From Nitrospiraceae bacterium (GTDB lineage Bacteria; Nitrospirota; Thermodesulfovibrionia; Thermodesulfovibrionales; UBA6898), in contig PLXX01000114.1 of the NCBI GenBank assembly GCA_003153275.1, positions 32,798 through 68,366 of the forward strand: a DNA stretch of 35,569 nt, read 5' to 3'. This document shows, in pieces, positions 2,861 through 31,443 of the stretch. Within the stretch, counting starts at the first letter, position 1; every line of letters starts with the position of its first letter. The notes beneath the pieces are model-generated. The model searched no databases and was not told the origin of the DNA. It worked only from the letters and a program-made list of their open reading frames with translations. The position numbers and the translations under genes were made by a program.

Positions 2861-5500
2861 TCAGGAATCAGCCCCAGCGTCCGCTATCCTGTTAAAGACA
2901 ATCCTGTCATTCTCATAATCGACCTCGACCACATTGCCATCCGTAAAGGTGCCTTCGAGAATCTTTCTGGCCAGCTCATTCAGAACCTCCTTTTGAAGGA
3001 CCCTTTTTAACGGACGTGCCCCATAGACAGGGTCGAAGCCGATTGAACCGAAATATTCCTTTGCCCGGTCGGTCAGGACCAGGTCAATATTTTTCTCTTT
3101 GATATAGCGCTTCATCCTGCTCACCTGGATATCGACAATTTTTTTGAGGATATCCCTAGTAAGAGGGTTAAAAGTAATGATCTCGTCAACACGGTTCAGG
3201 AACTCCGGCCTGAAAAACTTCTTGAGGTCTTCCATCACCTTTTCCCTGTAGCCGGAAGACGAATTGTCCACCCAGTATGCAGAGGGGTTCTTCTCCTGCT
3301 CTGCCAGCATCTCCTGGATATGCACACTGCCGATATTAGAGGTCATGATGACAACCGTATTTCTGAAGTCAACGGTCTTGCCGTGGCTGTCGGTAAGCCT
3401 CCCGTCGTCCAATAGCTGCAGCAGAAGATTGAAGACTTCAGGATGCGCCTTCTCGACCTCATCGAAGAGTATAACGGAATAAGGCTTTCTTCTTACAGCC
3501 TCTGTCAACTGACCGCCTTCTTCATAGCCGACATATCCCGGAGGGGCCCCTATCAGCCTTGAGACCGTATGCCGCTCCTGATACTCTGACATGTCGATCC
3601 TGATCATCGCGCTCTCATCGTCGAACAGGAATTCTGCCAGCGCCCGCGCAAGCTCTGTCTTCCCTACGCCTGTCGGTCCAAGGAAAATAAAGGATCCGAT
3701 CGGTCTGTTCGGGTCCTGTATGCCTGCCCGTGCCCGCCGCACGGCATTCGCCACCGCTTCGATCGCCTCATCCTGACCGACGACGCGGAGCCTCAGCCGA
3801 TCGTCCATCTGAAGCAGCTTCTGGATTTCACCTTCGAGCATGCGGGATACAGGGATGTTGGTCCATTTCGAAACTACATCTGCAATATCCTCTTCATCCA
3901 CCTCTTCCTTCAGCATCTTTCGCGTGTGCTGAACATCGAGAAGCCGCGTATTTTCTGCCTCAAGTGCCTTCTGAAGTTCGAGCATATTGCCGTAGCGCAG
4001 CTCAGCTGCTTTTGCAAGATCGCCTTCACGCTCGGCCTTTTCTGAGTCGGTTTTTGTCTGCTCCATCCGGCCTTTTAAATCGCGGATCTTCGCGATCACC
4101 TCTTTTTCTCTCAGCCACTGGGCCCTTAGCTGATCACGCCCGGACTGGAGTTCAGCCATCTCTTTGCCAAGCTTCCCGAGCTTGTCCTTTGATTCTTTGG
4201 AATTTTCGCGCATCACTCCCTGTTTTTCTATCTCAAGCTGCCGGATCCTCCTCTCGACCTCATCAAGTTCAACCGGCATGCTGTCTATTTCCATCCTCAG
4301 CTTCGAAGCGGCTTCGTCGATCAGATCGATCGCCTTGTCCGGCAGAAAACGGTCGGTTATGTAGCGATGCGAAAGCACCGCCGCGGATATCAGGGCAGCG
4401 TCCTTGATCTTGACGCCGTGATGCACCTCATATTTCTCTTTCAGACCGCGCAGGATCGAGATCGTGTCCTCTACGCTCGGCTCCTTGATCAACACCGGCT
4501 GGAACCGTCGTTCAAGCGCCGGATCCTTCTCTATATATTTTCTGAACTCACCTATAGTAGTCGCGCCGACACAGCGGAGCTCTCCTCGTGCAAGGGCTGG
4601 CTTCAGCATGTTTGACGCATCAACCGCACCTTCGGCCGCACCGGCACCGACCAGCGTATGCAGCTCATCGATAAAAAGGATAACCTTGCCTTCAGACTCC
4701 TCGACTTCTTTTATGACGGCCTTCAGTCTGTCCTCAAATTCTCCCCTGAACTTCGCTCCGGCAATCAGGGACCCCATGTCCAGGGCAACCACTTTTTTAT
4801 CTTTCAGTGTCTCAGGGACATCGCCGGCAACGATCCTCTGGGCAAGTCCCTCGGCAATGGCCGTCTTGCCGACGCCAGGATCGCCGATCAGAACCGGGTT
4901 GTTTTTTGTCCTTCTGGAGAGGACCTGAATGATCCTCCTGATCTCTTCGTCGCGACCGATGACCGGATCAAGCTTACCTTTTGAAGCCAGTTCCGTCAGG
5001 TCCTTGCTGAACTTCTTCAATGCCTGATATTTTTCCTCGGGATTCTGATCAGTCACCCGCTGCGTTCCCCTGATCTCGCGCATCGCCGTGAGGATCCGAT
5101 CCTGGTCCGCCCCGTTTTTCTTCAGGAGATCGGATGCATAGCCGGAGCTACCGACAATGGCCATCAGCAGATGCTCGACGCTGACATACTCGTCCTTAAG
5201 ATGTTCAGCCTGCTCCCGTGCCTTTTCAAGCACCTCTTTTAGCCGGGGTGTTACATAGATCTGGCCAACTGCCGTCGAGCCAAGTACCTTCGGCAACCGG
5301 TCCAGATGCTCCTCAAGATCTTTCCTGAGTATAGCGGTATTGACACCGATACGCTTTATGATCTGGGCCACAACGCCCTCTTCATCTTCCAGCAGCGACC
5401 AGAGGAGGTGTTCAACATCAATCTGCTGATGGCCCCTCTTCTCTGCGAGCCTCTGCGAGTTTTGTATCGCCTCCTGGCTTTTTACGGTGAATTTATCCAT
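2861..5500 (-). CDS. clpB: ATP-dependent chaperone ClpB
   Basis: 879 aa, two AAA+ modules ([30 protein letters not shown]), Clp N domain and coiled-coil middle domain. Confidence 0.98.
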
Positions 5501-5512
5501 TGTTATTCCTCC

Positions 5513-5866
5513 TTAATCTTCTTTTAATGCCCTGCTTAGCCGCTCCCGAAAGTCTGCCCGGGTATCATCCTCAAGGAACTGCATCATCTCTTCCAGTTCA
5601 TTCTGCATCGCTGCCATACGACGGCGCAGCCGAAGGATAATATCCACCCCCGCCCTGTTTACGCCGAGCTCACGCGTCAACTGCAGAATAAAATTCAACC
5701 GCTCAACATCGCTTTCTGAGTAGAGCCGTTGTGTTCTCCTCCGGAGCGGATGGATCAGTCCTTCTCTTTCATACAGTCGTAGCGTCTGCGGATGAACATC
5801 AAGCATTTCGCAGACAACGCTGATAAGGTAGATTGGTTTTGTCCTGTCCTTTTCTTTTTTATTCAT
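5513..5866 (-). CDS. hspR: MerR-family heat-shock regulator HspR-like
   Basis: MerR HTH ([45 protein letters not shown]) encoded between dnaJ and clpB. Confidence 0.9.
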
Positions 5867-6962
5867 GGTCTTTCACCATCCCTTTTCTTGGTGACTCTTT
5901 ATAAAGCGCCTCTATTTCCTGAATGACCGCTCGGGACTTTTCCGGGATCCCACGGGGGACAACAATTTTGATCGTCACAAACTGATCGCCCCTGTGGCCT
6001 GTTTTGGTCGCCGGGAGCCCCTTGCCAGAAAGTTTGAACTTTTGACCGCTCTGTGTCCCGGAAGGAAGCGTCATGGCAGCGACACCATCAATGGTCGGGA
6101 CCTCGATCCGCGCCCCCAACGCCGCCTCGCCAAACGTGACCGGCAGCTCAATTAACAAATTATCATCCTTTCGCGTAAAGAGATGGTGGGGTCGGACCGC
6201 AATCTCAATGTAGAGGTCACCGCGTTGTCCCCCAGACTGGCTGCCCTCACCCATTCCTTTCAGTTTTATCTTTGATCCGGTATCAGCACCTGCAGGTATC
6301 TTCACTTTGAGCGATTCTGTATGCTTGATGCTGCCCATGCTATTGCAGGCTTTACAGGCTTTAGTAATCTTGCGGCCGGTGCCGTTGCAGGCTTGGCAGT
6401 GTTGTGACGTCTTGAAAAATCCCTTTGAACTCGATATGTTACCAGTCCCCTTGCAGGTTTCGCACTGCTGATACGTCTCCGCCCCGGTCCCCTTGCAGGT
6501 CTTACATTCAACCTCGCGGTTAAAGGTAATCGGCCTAGTGACACCTGAAAAAGCCTCTTCGAGCGAAAGGTCCAGCCCCATAACCAAGTCATGCCCCTTC
6601 AGGTCTGCCTGTTGCGGCCTGCCGCTTGCACCCAAGATATCTGAAAAAATATCGCCAAAGCCTCCGAAGTCAAAATGGTCGCCTGAGGTGTAGGCCCTGT
6701 AATCAAAACCCGGTCCACCGGCGCCACCGGTACCGAAAGGGGTCTTTCCGAACTGATCATATTCAGCCCGCTTCTTTTCGTCGTTCAGTACTTCATAGGC
6801 CTCAGTCAACTCCTTGAACTTATTTTCTGATGCCTTGTCACCGGGATTCAGATCCGGATGATATTTTCGTGCAAGCTTTCTGTAGGCCTTCTTCAGCTCA
6901 TCCTGAGACGCCTTCTTATCAACCCCGAGTATCTCATAATAATCTTTTGCCGATGGAGCCAT
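5859..6962 (-). CDS. dnaJ: Chaperone protein DnaJ
   Basis: J domain with HPD motif, G/F region, four CxxCxGxG-type zinc repeats, C-terminal substrate domain. Confidence 0.97.
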
Positions 6963-6986
6963 GTCTCCTCCTTGTGTGTATTGCCT

Positions 6987-7015
6987 ATCATATTACTTTA
7001 GTATTGTCTTGTCAA
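6987..7015 (-). promoter_or_regulatory. dnaJ-hspR-clpB promoter (TTGACA-17 bp-TATGAT)
   Basis: Minus strand TTGACA (7015-7010), 17-bp spacer, TATGAT (6992-6987). Confidence 0.75.
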
Positions 7016-7016
7016 G
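6996..7016 (-). promoter_or_regulatory. HAIR-like HspR operator
   Basis: CTTGACA-AGACAAT-ACTAAAG resembles HAIR (CTTGAGT-N7-ACTCAAG) and overlaps the promoter. Confidence 0.6.
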
Positions 7017-7264
7017 TTAGTTGCGGCAGATGAAACAGGAGTAATGAGAAACATATCAGCAGGAAAAGGGATGGGGAGAATCCTAATTCGATATCAAATC
7101 GACCACGAAATCGAAAGAACAGCGTGAGAGCAGCGTGTAAACGGATTCAGCGGCGTATTGCGACAGTGCTTCGCATATTCGGCTTTAGCGGCAGCATCGG
7201 AAAGTGAGCGTACCATGCTGTCTCGCTGTTCACAATTAAGTTGATGGCGGTTGCAAAAGAGGGA

Positions 7265-7939
7265 TCAGTAAACCTGGAAGAGCTTCAGAAAGAATTTGAT
7301 AAAGGGCATGATGAAGAGGTTTGCTGCTCCCGAGTAGATCAGCACCAGGACGATAATAAAGCCGAACGGCTCGATCCTGCTGAATAACATCGCCTGTTTT
7401 TGGGGAAGCAGCCCGGTCAGTACCCGCCCCCCGTCGAGCGGCGGAATCGGGATCATGTTAAAAACCGCAAGCACTACGTTGATAACAATGCTGGCGGTCG
7501 CTATCAGGAACATGGGCCTGAGAACTGTTTCCGTCACTGTTGCCGGCATGACTGTCGAAAGCGGAACAATGGCGAGTTTCAATATGAGCGTGCTGATAAA
7601 TGCGAGCAGAATGTTCGTAACAGGGCCTGCAGCAGCGGAAAGCGCCATCCCCTTGCGCGGATTCTGAAAGTTTCTCGGGTCGATCGGGACCGGCTTTGCG
7701 TAGCCGAAAACAAACTGGCCGTTGGTCAGGAAGTACATCATCAGAGGAAGAATTATTGTGCCGAAGGGGTCTATGTGCACAAGCGGGTTGAGCGTCAATC
7801 GTCCCGCAAACTTGGCAGTCTGATCACCAAGCTTATATGCAATAAACCCATGTGAGACCTCATGAAAGGTTATCGCGACAAGGATCGCAGGAGCAGAAAT
7901 AAGAAGGCGCATCAGGACATCTGTATTTAATCCTTCCAT
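7265..7939 (-). CDS. Site-2 protease family membrane metalloprotease (M50)
   Basis: HEVSH zinc motif (FHEVSHGFIAYKLGD), NMIPIPPLDGGRVL, several TM segments. Confidence 0.93.
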   Translation of the reverse strand: MEGLNTDVLMRLLISAPAILVAITFHEVSHGFIAYKLGDQTAKFAGRLTLNPLVHIDPFGTIILPLMMYFLTNGQFVFGYAKPVPIDPRNFQNPRKGMALSAAAGPVTNILLAFISTLILKLAIVPLSTVMPATVTETVLRPMFLIATASIVINVVLAVFNMIPIPPLDGGRVLTGLLPQKQAMLFSRIEPFGFIIVLVLIYSGAANLFIMPFIKFFLKLFQVY

Positions 7940-7978
7940 TACCGGTACCTTTCTGTGAGCAGCACTCTATGGTCAGCC

Positions 7979-9640
7979 CTAAATCGGATTAAGGATCTCG
8001 TCGATCACCTTTCTGGCAAGAACCAGAGGATCGATAAACGTGTTCTCCATATCGCTGTCAAGATCTCTTTTGTTCGAGAGGAATGTAATCCTATCCTGCA
8101 TCCTTTCGCGAAGGAAGTTCAGATAATCAGGCGTGCGTGTCGGCTTATACTTCTTTTCATAGTCAGGGCCGAATAATTCATTGCCGTTCTTCGGCAACGA
8201 CAATCCTGCAAAGGCCTTCCAGTCCCGCCACTCGATAGTTCCCCGATTGAGTTCAGTAACAATCTTCAGCGAAATCTCCTTAGGGATATCAATAAGGCCA
8301 GAAGGAAGACCAAAGGCATGTGTATTCATAATATAACACTCGGTCCCCAGCTTGAAGAGCTTCAGGAACTGCAGGCAGTCTACAGTCAGCGGATGGACCC
8401 GGAACGGATTGGCAAAAGGTTCAATGACCAGTTTTTCAAGCTCCCTGGCGTCGACATTCTCAACGCCCCTTGCCCTCAGAGTACTCAGCGACGCGCCCAT
8501 GGCAACAGCAAGGGCAACGTCATTCACCCGGCAGATCGGCGGGATGCTGGTGTCCTTCTGAAGCCAGACGACCTTGCCCGGGCGCTCACAGTGGTCCTTA
8601 TGATTAAACATGTCCCTCGACTTCAGACAGCGACCGTTGTCGTTTCGTATATCCTCACATACCATCTTCACCTTGCCGTCCGGAAGCATGGTCGTACCGA
8701 CATTTTGTGCTGAAAAGAAATATTTTATGACGGGATCGTCAAACCCTACCGCATCTGTCTTGTCAAAAAGGCTTGGTTCAAGGGCAATAGTATAGTTATG
8801 CTCAAGATCGATCAGGAACGCATCGTCATGGATGACTGTCACCTTCTCGCTCTTCTTCAGTGTACCGCCGTGGTCGTGGCTGTTCGTCAGGGATGATTTG
8901 CCTGACCCGGAAAGACCGAAAAAAGCCAGTGGCTGTTTGTTCCCGATCTTCTTGATGCCGCCGTGGCAGGCTACCATATTTTGCCTGACTCCCATTGTCC
9001 ATGCAAGAGTGAGAGTCCCCTTCTTCCTCTCACCAAAATACCTGAGGCCGAGGATGGCGATACAGTTCTGAGCCTCGTCGATAATAACAAGGCCATTCGG
9101 GAAATCAGAATTTGACCATTCGGGATCTGCAAACACTAATATGTCCGGCTCGTCAAGCTGACGGGATTTCCTATAAAGATCGGTCCAGGGCTTCATCCAA
9201 GGTGAAAAATTGATCCCCCAGTCGAGCATGTTCTTGGCGTCGGTCTCGGGGCTGAGCAGATGGGCCTTGACCATAAAATCAGGATGAAGTCCCACGATGC
9301 CTTCGAGCCAGAGACCGGGCCGCCGGTTGAAATTATAAAGCGCCTCACCAAGAAGTCCAAGATACTTGTCCCTGTCCTTGCCCATCTCCCGGACAAGACG
9401 CCGTGCGCGCGCGGTGCGACCGACGATTCCGCCATCATTCGAGATCAGAACCATCGCACCCTTCGGAAGCTTGAACTGTTCAGGCTTATGCATGGGATGA
9501 GAGGTAACAACCACTTCCGGCTGCTTTGTCGCAAGCTTGTATAGCTCTGCCATAGTCGTCTTCCTGACCGAGTTGGCATGGAAGCCGCCTTCGATAAAAG
9601 CTCTCCATGGGGATGCAGCTATCTCGTGTTTCGTTGACAT
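7979..9640 (-). CDS. pckA: Phosphoenolpyruvate carboxykinase (ATP-type), divergent
   Basis: FFGLSGSGKSSLT kinase loop, IHDDAFLIDLE metal/ATP region, GERKKGTLTLAWTMG segment corresponding to PckA GGEMKKGMFS. Confidence 0.85.
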   Translation of the reverse strand: MSTKHEIAASPWRAFIEGGFHANSVRKTTMAELYKLATKQPEVVVTSHPMHKPEQFKLPKGAMVLISNDGGIVGRTARARRLVREMGKDRDKYLGLLGEALYNFNRRPGLWLEGIVGLHPDFMVKAHLLSPETDAKNMLDWGINFSPWMKPWTDLYRKSRQLDEPDILVFADPEWSNSDFPNGLVIIDEAQNCIAILGLRYFGERKKGTLTLAWTMGVRQNMVACHGGIKKIGNKQPLAFFGLSGSGKSSLTNSHDHGGTLKKSEKVTVIHDDAFLIDLEHNYTIALEPSLFDKTDAVGFDDPVIKYFFSAQNVGTTMLPDGKVKMVCEDIRNDNGRCLKSRDMFNHKDHCERPGKVVWLQKDTSIPPICRVNDVALAVAMGASLSTLRARGVENVDARELEKLVIEPFANPFRVHPLTVDCLQFLKLFKLGTECYIMNTHAFGLPSGLIDIPKEISLKIVTELNRGTIEWRDWKAFAGLSLPKNGNELFGPDYEKKYKPTRTPDYLNFLRERMQDRITFLSNKRDLDSDMENTFIDPLVLARKVIDEILNPI

Positions 9641-9678
9641 ATCTTCCCTCGATACATAGAGTATTTAATTTAACGTCA

Positions 9679-9764
9679 GTTGCAGTTGTATAGTATCGTA
9701 AATTCAGCCCCGGGAAGTCAAATACCCCGGGACTGCAGTTCGCGTCGGCTGAATAAACTGCAAC
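9679..9764 (-). promoter_or_regulatory. Structured leader candidate upstream of pckA (nested stems)
   Basis: GTTGCAGTT/AACTGCAAC, TTCAGC(C)/(G)GCTGAA and CCCGGG/CCCGGG pairs, ending 39 nt before the pckA start. Confidence 0.45.
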
Positions 9765-9898
9765 AACACAGAGCAACATCGCGACGCACCTTTTCAAACA
9801 GCGTTGGAGCGCGAGATGACCCACATCTTATCAGGTAGATACTTAATAATAAACAAGTAGAGCGATTTTGTCGCATTATAGTATATAATTACTTCTTA

Positions 9899-13136
<3,238 letters not shown>

Positions 13137-26562: not shown

Positions 26563-28968
<2,406 letters not shown>

Positions 28969-28986
28969 TTAAAATTAATTGTAGGT

Positions 28987-29100
28987 TAACACGTAATGTG
29001 AAATACTTAACGCATAAAGTGAAAGAATTTAACACGTAAGTTGATTTTTTAGATTGTTGGATTGCACATAATCTGCAATTTCTTTGCACATAAAGTGCAT
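28987..29100. repeat. Five-copy CAC-N5-GTG dyad array (probable operator array)
   Basis: CAC RTAAD GTG-like units at 28990, 29011, 29033, 29065, 29087; spacings 21/22/32/22 bp. Confidence 0.6.
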
Positions 29101-29112
29101 TTTTATGAGATT

Positions 29113-29140
29113 CCGGACTTCGATGAAGTCCGGTTTTCTT
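29113..29140 (+). terminator. Rho-independent terminator
   Basis: CCGGACTTC-GAT-GAAGTCCGG followed by TTTTCTT. Confidence 0.85.
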
Positions 29141-29211
29141 CTGAGTTTTGTTGAATTACTTGGGGTTAGGACTAAAGGAGAGGAGATTAGGGGGTCTTGG
29201 CGAGGTCGAAA

Positions 29212-29452
29212 ATGAATGACAAGTGCCCGAAGTGCGGCTTACCGCTCATTAATGAAGAAACTCGTGCTGACCCAAAGGGAGATGGCGGAAAAATTGGGTG
29301 TTGGGGAGAAGAATTTCGCTAGATATGAAAATCTCAGTATTCGCCAGAGCAAGGCGATGGATAATTTGTTGCGAATGTTAGATAGTTATCCTGATCTTAT
29401 TAAAGTTATTGAAGTAAAGAGGCAATCTGTAAATGTGAAAAAGAAGTGGTAA
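29212..29452 (+). pseudogene. YgiT/MqsA-like antitoxin remnant (zinc-finger start and HTH in different frames)
   Basis: Frame 1 MNDKCPKCGLPLINEETR..., frame 2 LTQREMAEKLGVGEKNFARYENLSIRQSKAMDNLLRMLDSYPDLIKVIE. Confidence 0.6.
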
Positions 29453-29499: not shown

Positions 29500-30081
29500 C
29501 TAATGGGCGGGTTTGCGATCTCTATAGGCCGTCTTTATCTTTTTCACCGATTGTGTAGGAGTTAAAAAGTTCCTACGCATTTTTTTTAACCCGTTGTATG
29601 TAGAGGTGTTAATAGATGTGTTCCCTTTTTCGTCAATGCTTACTTCATAAACTTTAAAGTCATTACGATATAAATAGTCACTGTGGCTCGTGAAAAACAA
29701 TTGACTGATAGGATTCCCAGGATCAGAAATAAAAGATTGAAGGTTATTAATAATTAACTCCTGATATTCGGGAGATAAATTTAGTTCAAGTTCTTCAATT
29801 AGAATAATTCTAGAAGTAGAATTAAAGAGCTTGGTAAGGATGTAAAAAAGCTGTTGAATACCTGTCCCATAATTTTTCAGTGGAAACCTACCAATTGAAT
29901 TTTCTAACATCACTTCGATTTCTTCCTTGAATCTGGAAAAGGTCATTTTAGTATTTTTAAATGGATAATTTGAAAGATTCTTGTCCAATACATCTGCAAC
30001 TTTAGAGGTGAGATTAAATCTATTTAGAAAGTCTATAAGACCAGTAAAAATAGCGTCTCTGGTTCGTCTCTGGCTATAGTT
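29500..30081 (-). pseudogene. C-terminal fragment of AAA/OLD-like ATPase
   Basis: YGTGIQQLFYIL, IILIEELELNLSPEYQELII (Walker B-like), LFFTSHSDYL; Walker A part missing; open frame begins at a stop next to the transposon fragment. Confidence 0.7.
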
Positions 30082-30165: not shown

Positions 30166-31443
30166 GTGTCAGGCATGCTGCCGCGTGTGGACCTGCCAGG
30201 ACTGATTCTTGAGATTGCCGCTCGCACCAACTTCACCGACGCCTTCACTCATATCTCGGAGCGTACGGCTCGCGCCGCCGACTTGCACATTAGCCTGTGC
30301 GCAGTGCTGATGGCCGAAGCCTGCAATACTGGATTGGAACCGTTGATTCGCGTTGATGTGCTGGCACTCAAACGCGACCGGTTGTCATGGGTGGACCAGA
30401 ACTACATCCGCGATGATACGCTGACGGCTGCCAATGCGACACTGGTGGCTGCGCAAAGGCAACTTGGACTAGCCAACTTGTGGGGTGGCGGCGAGGTGGC
30501 CTCGGCGGATGGCATGCGTTTCGTTGTCCCGGTACGCACTGTGCATGCTGGCCCCAACCTTAAATATTTCGGCGTGGGGCGCGGTGTAACCTGGTACAAT
30601 CTGATATCGGATCAGTACTCTGGTTTGAACAACATTACTGTGCCAGGTACACTGCGCGACAGCCTCACTCTGCTGGCCGTGGTACTCGAACAGCAAACCG
30701 ATCTCCAGCCGACGCAGGTAATGACTGATACAGGCGCTTACAGTGATGTTGTGTTTGGACTGTTCCGTTTGCTTGGCTACCGTTTTAGTCCGCGCCTGGC
30801 CGACGTTGGTGGCTCGCGCTTCTGGAGGATCGATCCGCAGGCCGATTACGGCCAGCTAAATCCGATCTCAGCCAACCACCTTAGCTTGCATAAAATTGTG
30901 CCTCATTGGGATGATATGCTGCGACTGACCGGTTCGCTTAAACTTGGCCGCGTGCCAGCAGCTGGCATCATGCGCACTCTTCAGGCAGGAGACCGTCAGA
31001 CACGATTGGCTCAGGCCATTGCCGAGTTTGGTCGCATCGACAAGACATTACACACGTTGACCTGCATCGACGATGAGGCCAAACGCAGGGGTACGTTAAC
31101 TCAGCTCAACCGTGGTGAGGGGCGTCATAGCGTAGCCCGAGCAGTGTTCCACGGCAAGCGAGGCGAGCTGCGCCAACATTATCGTGAGGGCCAGGAAGAC
31201 CAATTGGGTGCACTCGGTCTAGTGCTCAACATGATTGTATTGTGGAACACTATTTACATAGAGGCCGTCTTGAACCAACTGCGTGCAGAAGGCTATCCAG
31301 TGAAGGAGGAAGATGTTGTGCGGCTGTCGCCACTGCTCCACGAACATATTAACATGCTGGGAATGTATTCATTTTCGGTGCCGGAAGCTGTGGCCAACGG
31401 TGAGTTGCGGCCCTTGCGTGATCCGGCAGACAGCAACTCATGA
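30166..31443 (+). pseudogene. tnpA: Tn3-family transposase TnpA, N-terminally truncated
   Basis: 425 aa matching the DDE half of Tn3 TnpA (LAAANATLV...WGGGEVASADGMRF, VMTDTGAYSDVVFGLFRLLGYRFSPRLAD, LVLNMIVLWNTIYIEAVL). Confidence 0.9.

Follow-up and report, generated by a model that had tools for sequence, protein, structure and literature searches.

A phased repeat array behind gyrB in a Nitrospirota genome most likely represents right ends of Tn7-like transposons

Results

The window, by which we mean the whole 35,569-nucleotide stretch of Nitrospiraceae DNA that was analyzed (contig PLXX01000114.1), contains an intact gyrB gene within a dnaA-dnaN-gyrB cluster. An array of short repeats starts directly 3' of the gyrB stop codon (28966-28968), a placement absent from an earlier, sequence-only reading of this DNA. 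That reading had described five motifs starting at 28990, 29011, 29033, 29065 and 29087, at intervals of 21, 22, 32 and 22 bp, and all of the starts and intervals were confirmed. The consensus that it gave, CACRTAANGTG, is exact in two of the five motifs, while the remaining three each deviate by one mismatch. The core CRCRTAA is present in five copies on a single strand within 28969-29110, and more than two such cores per strand were seen in none of 5,000 dinucleotide shuffles of that interval; the five sites are real and well above chance expectation. The genome-wide search that had been suggested was run and returned the exact CACRTAANGTG motif four times in the 2.5-Mb genome, with two of the four at the array.

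The true repeat units exceed the length of the described motif and form two sets separated by 32 bp (Table 1). The idea that all sites face one side of the helix holds within each set, where units are 21 and 22 bp apart, but fails across the 32-bp gap, where one transposon end probably finishes and the next one starts. Downstream, the degraded MqsA-family gene that the sequence-only reading had recognized was confirmed by Pfam (MqsA_antitoxin, PF15731; E 7.9e-11), and its match to NCBIfam TIGR03830 falls under the cut-off because the pseudogene is truncated. A hairpin similar to the one in the window also occurs 3' of the array on contig C24 of the window's own genome (G000) and in two relatives (G016 and G010). 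Farther along, the AAA ATPase fragment is truncated cargo and the Tn3-family transposase fragment is a later insertion within or beside the element. No plasmid match was found for the window cargo.

Table 1. Coordinates of features at and downstream of gyrB in the window
Feature	Position	Strand	Description
gyrB	26566..28968	+	Intact 800-aa ORF; putative attachment gene
TTAAT	28975..28979		Expected site of the outer element's 5-bp target duplication, by analogy with G003, G016 and G030
Outer right end (predicted)	28980..29053	+	R1 match, 49.1 bits, E 1.3e-13, from model position 1; terminus TGTAGGT; units 28987-29003, 29008-29024 and 29030-29046; spacing 21/22
Unit set 1	28987, 29008, 29030		Three units of TTAACACGTAATGTGAAA/TTAACACGTAATGTGAA type, 21 and 22 bp apart
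Inner right end (predicted)	29055..29103	+	Separate R1 match, 30.5 bits, E 8e-8, from model position 1; terminus TGTTGGA; units 29062-29078 and 29084-29100; spacing 22
Unit set 2	29062, 29084		Two units of TTGCACATAATCTGCAA/TTGCACATAAnnTGCAA type, 22 bp apart
Hairpin	29113..29138	+	CCGGACTTC-GAT-GAAGTCCGG, then a T-run; resembles an intrinsic terminator, just inside the inner right end (predicted from sequence)
MqsA-like pseudogene	29213..29452	+	Start of the Zn finger and HTH part in different frames
AAA ATPase fragment	29500..29988	-	Relative of AriA/OLD-type defense ATPases; Pfam AAA_15 E 1.3e-13; PADLOC AriA E 3e-15
Tn3-family transposase, C-terminal part	30166..31443	+	PF01526 E 6e-145; NF033527 profile positions 554-953 of 954

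Because a strict pattern scan of genome contigs yielded just four loci, we constructed a 93-column, sequence-only model (R1) from six arrays, including the outer end of the window and the G362 array (L060). R1 matched the window twice, each match beginning at model position 1, which identifies the 32-bp gap as the joint of two ends, where the third unit of one right end gives way to the terminus of a second end. The outer end shares its spacing with the right ends of other genomes, although its R1 score is not independent because it was one of the six training sequences. The inner end was outside the training set and its match is independent. A 157-bp stretch (29063-29219) that begins within the inner end matches, at 89% identity, the array and leader of a second locus in this genome, on contig C24. 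The C24 array keeps four units, and comparison of the two sequences suggests that the inner end was probably shortened from four units by the loss of two. The window is probably the decayed product of two insertions of Tn7-like elements. Neither R1 nor a position matrix detected a left (distal) end in the window. Neither a left end nor any of tnsA-D was found in the window or its genome (82.5% complete), where searches for TniQ and TnsB were negative, so that this copy is known only from its right ends. A partner copy of the TTAAT duplication was not found in the window, which lacks a distal end.

Homologues of gyrB were present in 60 of the 61 genomes searched. Among the 60 relatives, G003, G016 and G030 carry an array behind gyrB with the unit TTGCRCATAAnnTGCAA, or a variant of it, at 21/22/22 spacing, and G001 and G021 carry arrays of the same geometry at this site composed of diverged units (TGCAATAAAG in G001). 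These arrays all open with a TG-type terminus, mostly TGTNGGA. The R1 search added G334, G178, G308, G414, G403 and G407. At least nine genomes have the terminus at a distance of 9-13 bp from the gyrB stop (G000, G003, G016, G030, G334, G414, G178, G362 and G308). Attachment site and orientation are fixed, with the array adjoining gyrB in these nine. Three right-end arrays are situated away from gyrB, namely on C24 of G000, on C52 of G334 and in G403. Array-free relatives have gyrA directly behind gyrB (G006, G020 and G015) or other sequences there (G002 and G004).

The opposite ends bear the array unit in inverted orientation, spaced 54/22/30-31 bp in G016, G003 and G178. These inverted units lie ~0.5 kb from the right end in G016 and on separate contigs in G003 (C38), G178 (C40) and G030 (C34). 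Relatives have sites at both ends that are inverted and unequally spaced (right, 21/22/22; left, 54/22/30-31), as is characteristic of Tn7-like elements. The window's own array was also considered as a single left end, and this was rejected since 21/22/32/22 is incompatible with 54/22/31 in either direction.

To look for target duplications, the terminus was fixed at 7 bp outside the first unit and the flanking 5 bp of both ends were compared. Exact 5-bp duplications were found in three of the six right/left pairs (G016, TGTCG; G003, GGAAT; G030, GTGTG), or in two of six when G030 is set aside, its left-end register having been set by eye through alignment of the CRCATAA core. Taking the fixed offset as given, the chance probability of three in six is ~2e-8. 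The two ends of G030, like those of G003, are on different metagenome-assembly contigs. No 5-bp duplication was found in the pairs of G334, G414 and G178, where the left terminus reads TGACGGA, and these pairs may have recombined or may constitute a sub-family.

TnsA, a TnsB-type DDE transposase, TnsC and TniQ are encoded in two relatives, G030 and G001, but were not found in the window's genome. In G030, the left-end array is located beyond tniQ of a tnsA-tnsB-tnsC-tniQ block (L113, C34) and the right end is behind gyrB on C45, with a duplication matching that of the C34 left end; tns genes thus lie within one right/left pair. The gyrB contig of G001 carries tnsA, tnsB, tnsC and a tniQ whose 1036-aa product has repeated HTH_17 motifs; CBASS and type I RM genes separate these genes from the gyrB-side array, and the far end is off the contig. 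Both TnsB proteins are homologous to PseTnsB/Tn6677 TnsB (E 1e-50 for G001 and 1e-92 for G030), and the closest solved structures for both are those of I-F3 TnsB. The two TniQ proteins share 22% identity over most of the G030 protein (E 1e-15). When the G001 TniQ was used as a query in the hunt for a mother element, matches were obtained in only four of 396 genomes.

The neighboring MqsA-like gene was examined across 177 genomes of the order. The four closest homologues all lie at the gyrB site and all have the array, whereas the next seven, which lie away from gyrB, show neither an R1 match nor a 21/22-phased core pair within ~1.5 kb on either side; their HTH parts are 54-66% identical and their open frames are 153-188 aa long. 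The proposed check of regions upstream of homologues was therefore positive for G003, G030 and G362, all at gyrB, and negative for the next seven, so that an array independent of gyrB was seen at none of these seven. Conversely, no mqsA-like gene lies behind gyrB in G016, G001, G021, G334, G414 or G308, despite the presence of the array. Like members of the MqsA/YgiT family, the gene beside the array has an MqsA-type HTH; unlike them, its N-terminal Zn-finger part is missing, frameshifted or interrupted by a stop codon, and no mqsR toxin was noticed. The array is not linked to the MqsA/YgiT family as such.

Homologues occupy the same place in G003, G030 and G362. At locus L047 of G003 (C67, ~370-490), a TAA codon interrupts the reading frame between the two CxxC motifs of the gene, and this copy too looks inactive at its Zn-finger end. 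Identity to the G362 copy is 83-88% in the HTH part, versus 68.5% or less for the gyrB C-termini (G000 vs G362 and G000 vs G030, both cross-family comparisons), which suggests that the mqsA-like gene travels with the element. The pseudogene looks like transposon cargo beside the right end, since none of the seven homologues outside the gyrB site has an array and mqsA is missing from many arrays.

Discussion

We conclude, with a probability of roughly 0.9, that the array consists of right-end sequence from Tn7-like transposons whose attachment site is gyrB. The motifs behind gyrB are most likely docking sites for a TnsB-type transposase and not a switch for a dead antitoxin gene: arrays without mqsA, together with inverted opposite ends spaced 54/22/31, point to transposase-bound ends over operators. 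Binding of the units by TnsB and recognition of gyrB by TnsD are predicted. A TniQ/TnsD protein, with a TniQ domain and a C-terminal HTH region, would read the 3' portion of gyrB and bring in TnsC, which would pass the signal on to TnsA/TnsB. TnsB would occupy the 22-bp-spaced sites of the right end (21/22/22) along with the dispersed, inverted sites of the left end (54/22/31), and TnsA/TnsB would place the element, always in one orientation, 9-13 bp beyond the gyrB stop, with the right end against gyrB, creating the 5-bp target duplication. The window would be a decayed copy in which tandem right ends, the hairpin, the mqsA-like pseudogene, the defense-ATPase fragment and the Tn3 remnant persist and from which the left end and tns genes have been lost. 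Such elements most likely insert repeatedly behind gyrB in Nitrospirota, carrying phage-defense genes.

An addition to this explanation, which does not exclude Tn7-like ends, is that the end sites are also bound by the transposon-borne MqsA-like HTH protein, which would control what the ends do, as Xre and MerR regulators borne by some CRISPR-associated transposons control those elements. Such regulators are known (PMC11406308, PMC9938897), four genomes have the HTH gene immediately internal to the right end, and it appears to move with the element. Arrays are nevertheless retained in gene-free elements (G016, G334, G414 and G308) and binding of the HTH protein to the ends is putative, and we regard this dual role as improbable, though less so than the readings that follow.

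The sequence-only reading correctly recognized phased protein-binding sites as the remains of a decayed system, next to a degraded MqsA-like gene; its further suggestion, a cooperative operator through which that HTH protein represses its own gene, is very unlikely and was rejected as the main reading on the strength of the seven array-free homologues, whose frames are long. HTH antitoxins of the MqsA family usually autoregulate, and at the gyrB site of G000, G003, G030 and G362 the mqsA-like gene does have the array upstream. Several genomes nonetheless have the array without mqsA, it appears also as inverted opposite ends, in relatives it starts from a terminus flanked by a 5-bp duplication, and a terminator-like hairpin separates it from the gene in the window.

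Slightly less probable still is that the arrays are ends of another multi-repeat transposon, such as one of the IS21 family, whose members likewise have several terminal repeats. Neither istA nor istB was recognized next to the arrays or among the ORFs read within elements, and the tnsA-B-C-tniQ genes within the G030 element, the three 5-bp duplications, the asymmetry of left and right spacing and the recurrence of insertions behind one gene all speak against it. The least credible reading, a replication-origin element of DnaA boxes or iterons, draws on the AT-rich composition of the array and its position ~3.6 kb from the end of dnaA near dnaA-dnaN-gyrB, and was rejected because several relatives have no array behind gyrB, a similar array lies elsewhere in the genome (C24) and inverted units occur at the far ends.

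With Tn7-like ends as the preferred reading, the nearest comparison is Tn7 itself, which inserts past glmS with its right end against the gene and whose ends are asymmetric, with site spacing that differs between left and right (PMC11406308, PMC8649781); four partly overlapping 22-bp TnsB sites make up its right end, next to glmS, and spaced sites its left. The gyrB elements share with Tn7 a right end that abuts the attachment gene, ~22-bp phased units on the right and dispersed inverted units on the left, a 5-bp duplication, tnsA-B-C with TniQ/TnsD, and insertion just past the stop of a conserved gene. They differ in attaching at gyrB, with insertion 9-13 bp past the stop, and in their unit (TTGCRCATAAnnTGCAA) and termini (TGTNGGA on the right, often TATNGG on the left).

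A second point of comparison involves parE, a paralogue of gyrB. This gene is the target of TniQ/TnsD in one I-F3 branch, the Tn7017 type (PMC11406308). The gyrB elements resemble that branch in their paralogous target and in a TnsB nearest to I-F3 TnsB among solved structures; they differ in attachment gene, and the portions of the G001 and G030 elements that were read showed no type I-F cas genes. The gyrB elements offer a direct test of TnsD evolution between parE and gyrB.

TnsB-site arrays and site-specific Tn7-like elements with defense cargo have been described before, with Nitrospirae among the recorded hosts (PMC8649781). Benler et al. 2021 describe Tn7-like transposons with defense cargo and list eight Nitrospirae host species, and the gyrB elements resemble theirs in having ~20-bp transposase-site arrays at the ends and defense and toxin-antitoxin cargo; the main text of that paper makes no mention of gyrB, and type II CRISPR systems do not appear in the portion of its cargo table considered here (PMC8649781). 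In G334, by contrast, a complete Cas9-Cas1-Cas2-CRISPR locus is enclosed by such ends. A limited literature search turned up no paper in which gyrB serves Tn7-like elements as an attachment site. We hold, with moderate confidence, that these elements form a previously undescribed gyrB-homing Tn7-like family throughout this Nitrospirota order. Its TniQ/TnsD proteins would be long (735-1036 aa) and contain HTH_17 motifs, and the family would include many small derivatives, non-autonomous but retaining both ends, that carry single modules (mqsA-like, VapBC-like or a complete CRISPR-Cas9). An array that resembles a regulator's operator is now accounted for, and gyrB, an essential gene, emerges as a place where Tn7-like elements can safely attach in a phylum with few cultured members. 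With the array model, defense islands in that phylum can be found and bounded, including small elements whose transposase is elsewhere.

Other elements in relatives

Several elements of unusual composition were noticed in relatives. A ~590-bp element in G016 (L041, C45, 18938-19520) has four units per end, is flanked by a perfect TGTCG duplication and contains no recognizable gene; it is a miniature derivative behind gyrB. On C40 of G178 (L110, 2550-2760), a left end abuts a right end with 6 bp between them, as expected of tandem insertions at one attachment site.

In G334 (L108, C17:33001-46933), oppositely oriented Tn7-like ends at 4573-11021 bracket ~6.4 kb behind gyrB that contain a 24-repeat CRISPR array (66-bp period), Cas2, Cas1 and a 1026-aa Cas9. 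There are no tns genes between these ends and no matching 5-bp duplication, and the whole looks like a mini-element carrying an entire type II CRISPR locus. In family f4, a toxin-antitoxin pair predicted from its sequence to be VapBC-like comes directly after the right end on C10 of G414 (L125, 4946-5903) and on C52 of G334 (L109, 4634-5400). The pair in G414 is enclosed by both ends, and the right end in G334 is located ~300 bp past a tmRNA gene. A different Tn7-like block, with tnsA, tnsB, tnsC and a short tniQ, occurs in G013 (L065, C116, 5725-11337), where it adjoins a putative fragment of a ComM/Mg-chelatase-like gene and recalls comM-targeting elements.
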